DNA from: Candidatus Delongbacteria bacterium
GTDB taxonomy: Bacteria > UBA4055
Length of the DNA: 33,008 nucleotides
Assembly: GCA_007124045.1 (NCBI GenBank)
Contig: SLFX01000181.1
Span: forward strand, 1-33,008
Reading direction: 5' to 3'
Shown: positions 13,564 to 27,176 of the stretch, piece by piece
How the letters are laid out: the number at the start of each line of letters is the position of its first letter
Position numbering within the stretch: the stretch's first letter is position 1
Notes under the pieces: model-generated
Seen by the model: the letters and a program-made list of their open reading frames with translations, nothing else
Databases searched by the model: none
Told to the model about the DNA's origin: nothing
Program-made: the position numbers and the translations under genes

Positions 13564-14493
13564 CTATATTTTTTCGTATACTCTTAACTTTGCGCTTCTT
13601 GATCTTGAATTACGCTGAATTTCATCATCTTCAGGTCTGATAACTTTTCCTGTTACATTTATGATCTCCGGTACCGTTTCGCACATGCATCTTGGAAAGC
13701 TTACGGGACATGTACATTTTCTTGAATTTTCCGATATAAAACTCTTCACTATTCTGTCTTCCAGTGAATGATACGAAATAACCCCTGCTCTTCCACCCTT
13801 CTTCATTATAGAGACTGAGATATCTAAAGCTTTTTTTATTTCGTCCAGCTCGCCGTTCACAACAATTCTGATCGCCTGAAAAATTCTTGAAAGAGACTTC
13901 ACTCTATGCCTGGATCCAACTACTGAAGATACTATATCAGCGAGATCTTTAGTATTTTCGATCTCTCTTTCCGACCTTCGGGAAACTATTCTGGCAGCTA
14001 TTTGAGCAGATCTGTTCTCCTCTCCAAATTCAAAGAAGATTCTTTGAAGGTCTTTTTTGCTGTAGTTATTTACGATATCTCTTGCAGAAATTTCATTTTC
14101 AGGATTCATCCTCATATCCAGAAGTCCGTCAAGTGAGTGAGAAAATCCTCTTTCCGGGTCATTAATCTGTTTTGAAGAAACTCCCAGATCGAAGATTATT
14201 CCGTCGAATTTTTGACCGTAAATAATATCCGTAATCTCTTTCAAACTTCCAAATTCAATATTTACAGCCTTAAAGTTCTTTCTGTCCTTAAGTCTTTCAG
14301 ATGCGAAATTTATCGCTTCTGGATCTCTGTCAACTCCTATCACAAAACCATCTTCTTCCAAGTGGTTCAGGACAGCTTCAGAATGCCCTCCGCCGCCAAG
14401 AGTACAGTCAAGATAAGTGCCATTCCTGTTCCTTACAATATACTTAACTATCTGGTCTGTCATTACCGGTATGTGATAGTTACTGAAAAACAT
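13564..14493 (-). CDS. rsmH: 16S rRNA (cytosine1402-N4)-methyltransferase RsmH (MraW)
   Basis: HIPVMTDQIV, LDCTLGGGGHSEA, DGIIFDLGVSSKQINDPERGFSH, RIFQAIRIVVNGEL, ISYHSLEDRIVK. Confidence 0.97.
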   Translation of the reverse strand: MFFSNYHIPVMTDQIVKYIVRNRNGTYLDCTLGGGGHSEAVLNHLEEDGFVIGVDRDPEAINFASERLKDRKNFKAVNIEFGSLKEITDIIYGQKFDGIIFDLGVSSKQINDPERGFSHSLDGLLDMRMNPENEISARDIVNNYSKKDLQRIFFEFGEENRSAQIAARIVSRRSEREIENTKDLADIVSSVVGSRHRVKSLSRIFQAIRIVVNGELDEIKKALDISVSIMKKGGRAGVISYHSLEDRIVKSFISENSRKCTCPVSFPRCMCETVPEIINVTGKVIRPEDDEIQRNSRSRSAKLRVYEKI

Positions 14494-14557: not shown

Positions 14558-15076
14558 CTAATGATCTTTTTTTTTGCTTCTGTTCAGTATGCCGTGAAAA
14601 TCCGGTTCTTCGGTTTGCGCTGTAATCTCTTTCGAGTAAATTTCAAACACTTCTTCGGACCACACCTGAAGTCTGTTTCCGCCAAAACCCTGAATGAACA
14701 GGTTTTTTGATGCTTTTATATATTTGAGAAACTCTTTGGGAAATGTCATTCTGGACATACCGTCAAGCGACGCCTCGTCACATTTCAGAGTAGTGAAAAG
14801 CGACAGCTCGTCATCCGAAAGACTAATTTCCAGCTGCTCATAAAACAAAACCCACTCTTCATCCGTAAAAACATAAAAAACAGGGTATTTTTCATCCGAT
14901 CCCGGCTTTTTCACATAATCTTTGTAAAGGTGAAAAACATTAAATTTTTCTCTTTTGGTATCCTCGTGGTCTTCGGGAAGTATTCTTTTCAGAATCTTTT
15001 TGAAATTAATTCGCCCTTTTTCATCCAGTGAGTATTTGTATTTACCCGAAAAGACACCCATTTTATACACTTTCAT
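14558..15076 (-). CDS. mraZ: Divergent MraZ-family transcriptional regulator; start could be ATG 15061 instead of 15076
   Basis: SGKYKYSLDEKGRINFKK resembles the MraZ/AbrB-like motif; LDGMSRMTFPKEFLKYI is a degraded second motif; located immediately before rsmH. Confidence 0.85.
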   Translation of the reverse strand: MKVYKMGVFSGKYKYSLDEKGRINFKKILKRILPEDHEDTKREKFNVFHLYKDYVKKPGSDEKYPVFYVFTDEEWVLFYEQLEISLSDDELSLFTTLKCDEASLDGMSRMTFPKEFLKYIKASKNLFIQGFGGNRLQVWSEEVFEIYSKEITAQTEEPDFHGILNRSKKKDH

Positions 15077-15093
15077 ACATTTTTATACACTGG
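15057..15093 (-). promoter_or_regulatory. Putative MraZ operator: four 10-bp-period repeats overlapping the mraZ start
   Basis: Minus strand CCAGTGT-ATA-AAAATGT-ATG-AAAGTGT-ATA-AAATGGG; fits the AAAGTG(T/G)-N3 pattern described for MraZ boxes in Mollicutes. Confidence 0.7.
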
Positions 15094-15102
15094 GAGTAAA
15101 TT

Positions 15103-15129
15103 ATACAATACTTAAGCCTTTGTCAAGTC
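15103..15129 (-). promoter_or_regulatory. Candidate promoter of mraZ
   Basis: Minus strand TTGACA-(15 nt)-TATAAT; both hexamers are consensus but the spacer is short. Confidence 0.5.
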
Positions 15130-15155
15130 TTTTATTATTTTTTTTTAAAATAAAA

Positions 15156-15175
15156 TAACCGCCGGTTGGCGGTTA
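15156..15175 (-). terminator. Rho-independent terminator after pyrH
   Basis: Minus strand TAACCGCC-AACC-GGCGGTTA, an 8-bp stem followed by TTTTATTTTAAAA. Confidence 0.75.
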
Positions 15176-15203
15176 TAAGGGATCTATATTTTTTAAGGTA
15201 CAA

Positions 15204-25759: not shown

Positions 25760-26431
25760 ATGAGTTTGATAAAGATCAAAGGTCATATATGTTCTTCGTT
25801 AACCTCACTTCTATACCTTCTCTTTCCACCCTCATGCTACATCTGCTCTGAATATCTTGATGATGAACTTCTGGTTTGCAAAAAATGCCTCAAATCATTA
25901 AAAATCCATAAAAACGAAAATAAAAATCATCTTTCCGTCTTCTGTTACGACAGTAATATCAGGGTTTTGATACATGCTTTAAAATACGGCAACAGACCTT
26001 TGATCGGGAGAATTATCGGAAGGGAAATGGCAAAAAGACTTAAAGATCTTCTTTCAAACGAAAATTCACTGCTTGTACCTGTGCCTCTTCATAAAAAAAG
26101 ATTGAGAAAAAGGGGATATAACCAGAGCCGCCTTATATCTGAAGGTATTTCTGATATCACATCAATCCCCGTTGATGAATCTTTTCTTACAAGAAAAACA
26201 AATAATGTCTCGCAAACTATTCTGGGTTCAAAAGAAAGAGCTGAGAATGTTATGAATATTTTTTGTTCAAGGACGCTCTCAGAAAGTGAAAAGAGCAAAA
26301 ATGTTTATTTGATTGACGATCTCATAACAACAGGGGCAACATCAAAAGAGGCCTGTAAGGCCCTCAGGAGTGCAGGAAACGAAAAATTATTCCCCATAAG
26401 TGCCGCCACCAGTTCTAACGATTTCATGTAA
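25760..26431 (+). CDS. comF: ComF family amidophosphoribosyltransferase-like protein
   Basis: CYICSEYLDDELLVCKKCLKSL zinc-finger-like, LVPVPLHKKRLRKRGYNQSRLI, NVYLIDDLITTGATSKEA PRPP motif. Confidence 0.92.
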   Translation: MSLIKIKGHICSSLTSLLYLLFPPSCYICSEYLDDELLVCKKCLKSLKIHKNENKNHLSVFCYDSNIRVLIHALKYGNRPLIGRIIGREMAKRLKDLLSNENSLLVPVPLHKKRLRKRGYNQSRLISEGISDITSIPVDESFLTRKTNNVSQTILGSKERAENVMNIFCSRTLSESEKSKNVYLIDDLITTGATSKEACKALRSAGNEKLFPISAATSSNDFM

Positions 26432-27176
26432 AAACTATCAGCAGCCATGCTCTTGAATCCTGCCACGGAATGATCTTTAATTTGTAATTACTGTATATAA
26501 TCTTTCCGTTTTTATGCTTAAAACCGGATTTGCCTTCACCCTTTTCCTGCAAATAAAGCTGCTCCAGTGTCTCCTGTTCAGGAAAAACAGTCTCTCGTTT
26601 ATCGATTATATCATGTACCTTTTTTCCGACAATATATGATCTTGTGTAGCCAAGACTTTCCTCTACCTGGTCATTTAAATCAAGTATGCACTGATCGTAT
26701 GGGTCTATTACAAAGACCATTTCTGTAAAATGATTGAATATCGTTCTGAACTTTGCCTCAGAAAGCAAAAGATCCCTTTCGACTCTTCTTTTCTTTTTCA
26801 GCTCATCACCTTTTATCAAAGCTGACTCTATTGAGGGTATGAGTTTTTCCAGTTTAGATTTAAATATATAATCTACTGCACCATATTTTAAAGTGTCGAT
26901 TGCAATATCTTCATTAATTGTACCTGAAAGAATAATCGTGGGAATGTCGGGATTGATCTGTCTTACCATATAAAGTATTCCGTAACCGTCAATATCCGGC
27001 AGGCTGAAATCGGCAAGTATAACATCAAATTTCATAGTTTTAAGCGATATTTTGAAATCGTTTTTATTCTGAACATGAAATAAAGTATACTTGAGTTTTC
27101 CGGTATTAAGTTTATCTCTGATAAGCTCAACATCAAGCTCGTCGTCTTCGAGGTAAAGGATTGAGATCTTTTTCAT
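26424..27176 (-). CDS. Response regulator receiver domain plus PAS domain, no recognizable output or kinase domain
   Basis: REC: ILYLEDDELDVELI, DVILADFSLPDIDGYGIL, ILSGT, AVDYIFKSKLEKL; PAS: LSEAKFRTIFNHFTEMVFVIDPYDQCILDLNDQVEESLGYT; ends after the PAS fold. Confidence 0.88.
   Translation of the reverse strand: MKKISILYLEDDELDVELIRDKLNTGKLKYTLFHVQNKNDFKISLKTMKFDVILADFSLPDIDGYGILYMVRQINPDIPTIILSGTINEDIAIDTLKYGAVDYIFKSKLEKLIPSIESALIKGDELKKKRRVERDLLLSEAKFRTIFNHFTEMVFVIDPYDQCILDLNDQVEESLGYTRSYIVGKKVHDIIDKRETVFPEQETLEQLYLQEKGEGKSGFKHKNGKIIYSNYKLKIIPWQDSRAWLLIVFT

Follow-up and report, generated by a model that had tools for sequence, protein, structure and literature searches.

A putative three-box MraZ operator with a lineage-specific core at the head of the dcw cluster in Delongbacteria

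The operator of the division regulator MraZ in E. coli reportedly consists of TGGGN repeats with 5-nt spacers. In Mollicutes, MraZ binds (AAAGTGKN3)3 (PMC5282649 citing Fisunov 2016), and in M. genitalium the MraZ box is single-copy in the genome and mraW and ftsZ transcripts increase when mraZ is lost (PMC8475190). The B. cenocepacia protein binds a promoter fragment containing four 7-nt repeats; repression by E. coli MraZ likewise acts through a repeated sequence upstream of mraZ (both PMC7761207). In the mycoplasma M. gallisepticum, MraZ has been described as an activator (PMC7761207 citing Fisunov 2016) and its overexpression was accompanied by raised FtsZ (PMC8475190).

Here we describe a repeat array at the head of the dcw cluster in a Candidatus Delongbacteria genome (GCA_007124045.1; 1.99 Mb in 184 contigs), whose nearest relatives constitute one family. 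The window analysed is one whole contig of 33,008 nucleotides (SLFX01000181.1). The gene preceding the array is pyrH, which ends in a terminator-like hairpin; similar hairpins are visible at the same place in several relatives. Downstream, the cluster runs in the order mraZ, rsmH, a small ORF in the ftsL position, ftsI, murE, murF, ftsW, murC, murB, ftsQ, ftsA and ftsZ. No mraY was found between murF and ftsW (9505-5684, minus strand); the mraY of this genome resides on another contig. Neither murD nor murG was seen among the ORFs of the dcw cluster. Coordinates are collected in Table 1.

Table 1 Features at the mraZ locus, in positions of the window.
Feature	Position	Strand	Remarks
Intrinsic-terminator-like hairpin after pyrH	15155..15176	-	separates pyrH from the mraZ promoter
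-35 element TTGACA, mraZ promoter	15121..15126	-	identical in 10/10 Delongbacteria mraZ promoters
-10 element TAATTT, 17 bp from -35	15098..15103	-	TA[AG][TCA]TT in 10/10 relatives
Putative MraZ-box unit 1 CCAGTGTATA	15084..15093	-	predicted transcription start about here
Putative MraZ-box unit 2 AAAATGTATG	15074..15083	-	
Putative MraZ-box unit 3 AAAGTGTATA	15064..15073	-	
Fourth unit of the first-pass annotation, AAATGGG	15057..15063	-	start-codon context, one base off register; not a box
mraZ, 167 aa	14558..15061	-	PF02381 44.1 bits, cut-off 23
rsmH (mraW), next dcw gene	13564..14493	-	TIGR00006 338.9 bits, cut-off 154.3

The first-pass annotation had read the minus strand from 15093 to 15057 as CCAGTGTATA AAAATGTATG AAAGTGTATA AAATGGG, and both letters and coordinates proved exact. 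Its description of four units at a period of exactly 10 bp was borne out for three, which occupy 15093-15064 in the 10-bp register with RTG cores 10 bp apart (GTGT, ATGT and GTGT). The fourth is out of register: AAATGGG matches the third unit at 4 of 7 positions, its ATG comes 9 bp after the third core, and AAATGAG or AAATGAA stands there in relatives of the same spacing. The array thus reduced resembles a MraZ box in having at least three direct units at a 10-bp period (three in the window, three to four in relatives), a TG core with an A-rich 5' side, and a site at the mraZ promoter heading the dcw cluster.

With the E. coli operator the array shares direct repeats, a 10-bp period and a position upstream of mraZ at the head of dcw, but it is without the GGG tract, carrying T or TA after the TG core. 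The Mollicutes operator (Fisunov 2016 via PMC5282649) is likewise made of three direct units at a 10-bp period at the mraZ promoter, and like the box of M. genitalium (PMC8475190) the Delongbacteria array is apparently single-copy. In PmraBc of B. cenocepacia (PMC7761207), too, repeats occupy the mraZ leader in a dcw operon regulated by MraZ; there are four of them, each of 7 nt, however, and the transcription start lies 100 bp before the gene, as against about 30 bp predicted here. The HsdC operator of Mollicutes (PMC5282649) resembles the array in placing direct repeats over the -10/transcription start and in keeping TG invariant in their cores, but it serves another regulator, and its core-to-core spacer and the MraZ-box spacer differ by 1 nt.

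Conservation was assessed by searching 13 Delongbacteria genomes for the pattern ARTGTATRAAARTGTATRAAARTG with up to three mismatches. At two mismatches or fewer, the pattern was found directly upstream of mraZ in all ten genomes with an assembled mraZ, and nowhere else in the 13; matches elsewhere carried three mismatches and were about as numerous as in the reversed control. The three genomes without the array were also without an assembled mraZ, two of them having no rsmH and the third carrying rsmH at a contig edge. (A single-protein scan of the genome contigs recovered one relative only.) Alignment of the mraZ upstream regions of the six genomes with equal spacing gave an average identity of 85% for the array and 89% for the cores, compared with 64% for the promoter spacer and 58% for the DNA farther upstream of the promoter. 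In the same six genomes the -35 and -10 elements were 100% identical and the first 60 coding bases 75%. From the -10 element to the array there were 4-6 bp, not conserved in sequence; in the other four genomes this gap measured 5-7 bp.

In 10/10 genomes with mraZ, the 10-bp array lies between mraZ and a promoter of the form TTGACA-N17-TAnnTT, which in the window spans 15098-15126 on the minus strand. The -10 element at 17 bp took the forms TAATTT, TAGTTT, TAACTT and TAAATT. A TTGACA/TATAAT promoter had been proposed, of which the TTGACA half was upheld in all ten genomes. TATAAT, conversely, lies 15 bp from TTGACA, is present in five of the ten relatives (with CATAAT in a sixth) and has been lost in several; it was disfavoured as the -10 element, the TAATTT type at 17 bp being conserved instead. 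Within the window genome, TTGACA-N17-TAWATT occurred at 65 sites against 1 in the reversed control, and TTGACA-N17-TATAAT at 6 against 1. Conservation of the -10 element and these genome-wide counts together make the 17-bp spacer the better reading of the promoter, and transcription is predicted to begin at unit 1 or immediately ahead of it, with 5' ends near 15091. The Bacteroidota -10 element is TAnnTTTG; that of the window genome resembles it, but is paired with a full TTGACA -35 element.

We consider it probable (roughly 87%) that the array is a MraZ operator of three boxes which exerts negative feedback on the mraZ-dcw operon. This reading is based on the array itself, its conservation and position, its being the sole site at two mismatches or fewer, and the homology of MraZ; four points we infer, namely that MraZ binds, where transcription begins, in what oligomeric state the protein acts and in which direction it regulates. 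The earlier identification of a MraZ-box-like operator holds up as a sequence-based prediction, the array being in the expected place, kept in relatives and directly followed by mraZ. Three direct boxes, one helical turn apart, would reach from the predicted transcription start of the mraZ-dcw promoter almost to the mraZ start codon. MraZ produced by this operon would bind them on one face of the DNA and hinder promoter opening or escape, giving negative feedback on mraZ, rsmH and the genes from ftsI to ftsZ named above. Given the MraZ-bound repeats of Mollicutes, Burkholderia and E. coli and the derepression seen in M. genitalium, an autorepressor operator is the simplest account. Counting against it are the RTGT core, where characterised boxes have GTGG, and a MraZ that scores below equivalog cut-offs. 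A literature search returned no binding, footprint or expression data for any Delongbacteria. The arrangement itself is known from other bacteria, and what is particular here is the lineage-specific spelling of the core; the MraZ autoregulatory operator would thereby be extended to an uncultured phylum.

It is unlikely that MraZ, working from the same operator, chiefly activates the promoter or switches it both ways instead of repressing it. The two M. gallisepticum reports cited above point in this direction. Conversely, the boxes lie downstream of the -10 element, over the predicted transcription start, in a position typical of repression, and knock-out of mraZ in M. genitalium derepresses the cluster (PMC8475190).

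The relation of the array to the mraZ start codon bears on two further alternatives. The ATG at 15061 is kept as start codon in 9/10 relatives, L007 having been assigned a GTG start. The upstream ATG (15076), by contrast, corresponds to ATA in L003, L004 and L008, and L009-L011 lack a counterpart. MraZ was therefore taken to begin at 15061 and the array to be a non-coding leader; an operator-encoded N-terminus MKVYKMG, which would begin at 15076, was abandoned. The array had also been said to span both candidate ATGs, so that bound MraZ would cover the start codon. Array and 15061 ATG are in fact adjacent and not coincident, so that bound MraZ would block the transcription start and the early transcribed region and would here at most touch the ATG. 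Both the start codon and the promoter register of mraZ are thus corrected by this analysis. The start codon lies 9 bp from the third core in six genomes; from the last counted core, the distance is 10 in L007, 8 in L009, 14 in L010 and 4 in L011, that last unit being degenerate in L007 and L011.

We regard it as very unlikely that the repeat is a translation-initiation feature (AAAAUG units acting as repeated starts, or a short upstream ORF) with no protein site. The units do contain AUG or GUG, and in the window a 5-codon ORF starts in unit 2, with its stop beginning 4 bases ahead of the mraZ start codon. Furthermore, unit 3 of five relatives (L003-L006 and L008) is spelled RTGGRG and stops 3 bases short of the ATG, placing GGAG or GGGG 6-7 bases upstream of it. 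This unit could double as a Shine-Dalgarno sequence, and operator and ribosome-binding site may therefore overlap in those five relatives. The window species, however, has TGTATA in unit 3 and no GGAG-like motif before mraZ. Additionally, the spacing is strictly 10 bp, which is not divisible by three, and it is retained even though the start codon lies at different distances. A conserved upstream ORF from unit 2 was rejected, as its frame and stop position differ among relatives.

More doubtful still is a coding constraint on the repeat, as part of a longer MraZ N-terminus (MKVYKMG and onwards). In the window no stop interrupts the frame from 15076, and L005 and L006 also have an in-frame ATG. 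Against this stand the ATA codons noted above and the different context of the array in L009-L011, with an in-frame stop between array and start in L011; moreover, the third position of the lost codon is an A/G-variable position of the DNA unit itself.

The 10-bp periodicity was also evaluated on its own. The self-match of the array at lag 10 was 18/27, the best of all lags and the top value among the 32,972 37-mers of the window, whose highest lag-10 values were those of seven overlapping 37-mers at the array. Since 32 of 5000 dinucleotide shuffles of the array region were equally strong, the periodicity by itself is modestly above chance and suggestive only, and the array was judged real on conservation. 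A functionless tandem repeat arising by chance or slippage, which AT-rich DNA and those shuffles would allow, is hardly credible for an array kept at the same promoter throughout the phylum while its flanks diverged.

The spelling of the putative MraZ boxes was compared with that at 98 MraZ loci of other families, mostly best-scoring PF02381 matches and hence biased to canonical MraZ, using a unit finder for [AG]TG units at 10-bp spacing. At least three units at 10 bp were present at 68 of the 98 loci, and at least two units with the core [AG]TG[GT] at 88. Outside Delongbacteria, 223 of 257 units had the core GTGG. The array had been classed as Mollicutes-type and not E. coli-type; this distinction was not supported, for AAAGTGG-like units predominate in dozens of bacterial families, and the E. 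coli TGGGN and Mollicutes AAAGTGK thus look like views of one motif. The units of the window depart from this general form in that A occurs besides G ahead of TG, and T behind it.

In Delongbacteria, T follows TG in 26/31 units (84%) versus 16/257 elsewhere. A precedes TG, where the Mollicutes consensus has G, in 20/31 units (AAAATGT) versus 23/257 elsewhere, G making up 35%; a TATR tail is frequent after the TG core. The per-unit Fisher values of 3e-21 and 1e-11 exaggerate the significance, neither units nor species being independent of one another, and a locus-level count gave the same contrast, T being found in most units at 10/10 Delongbacteria loci versus 5/88. Positions 1, 2 and 3 of the Delongbacteria units are A in 68, 84 and 94%, respectively; the invariance of TG is no independent evidence, since the unit finder demands it. 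New here, then, are Delongbacteria units with an RTGT core (mostly ATGT), alongside changes in the two conserved loops of MraZ.

The MraZ of the window fell short of both NCBIfam equivalog cut-offs (NF001476, 35.6 of 162 bits; TIGR00242, 24.2 of 98.35 bits); with such scores and a divergent branch, it was not called an equivalog on NCBIfam ground. Profile-profile comparison of Delongbacteria MraZ with MraZ of other families gave a probability of 98.7 over 129 columns, and the Delongbacteria profile matched MraZ chains in the PDB with E values of 1.8e-9 to 1.5e-7. Our literature search found no paper on the newer MraZ entries there. An AlphaFold model built from two sequences only was of low confidence (pLDDT 60, pTM 0.55), and Foldseek returned no significant match with it. 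Both D-x-x-x-R motifs are present in the window protein (DEKGR and DGMSR), and the D and R of both loops are invariant among ten Delongbacteria sequences. After loop 1, the P found in 92/96 sequences elsewhere is replaced by K in 9/10 Delongbacteria; in loop 2, the Q-G found elsewhere (78/96 and 92/96) is replaced by [SMA]-[EDSQ].

We tentatively suggest, at somewhat less than even odds, that operator and repressor changed together in Delongbacteria, the core passing from GTGG to RTGT as the recognition loops changed. That the loop changes explain the altered core is a hypothesis, and phylum-specific differences would also arise by descent alone. If true, a division regulator of very wide distribution would have shifted its DNA specificity in one phylum. 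GTGG operators with D-x-Q-G-R loops, as in most bacteria, and RTGT operators with D-x-[SMA]-[EDSQ]-R loops, as in Delongbacteria, offer a natural comparison, and MraZ entries in the PDB open the reading of bases by loop residues to test by swaps.

A second element was observed in the mraZ-rsmH gap, where a hairpin, CTCCTCCGCTACTTCGGTAGCGG, occupies 14545-14523 on the minus strand. It was found in exactly one copy, just upstream of rsmH, in 9/13 Delongbacteria genomes and nowhere else in the 13; the control gave none. Its 7-bp stem is preserved by two-sided changes in two relatives. Rfam yielded no match at the gathering score, and sub-threshold matches were at chance level. The hairpin may serve as an attenuator or as a processing site; alternatively, it may represent an undescribed RNA element that controls rsmH and the remaining dcw genes. 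Elsewhere in the window, a 250-aa protein encoded at 26424-27176 on the minus strand scored 117 bits with the LvrB hybrid response regulator model, whose cut-off is 500, the match covering the model's N-terminal 142 residues.
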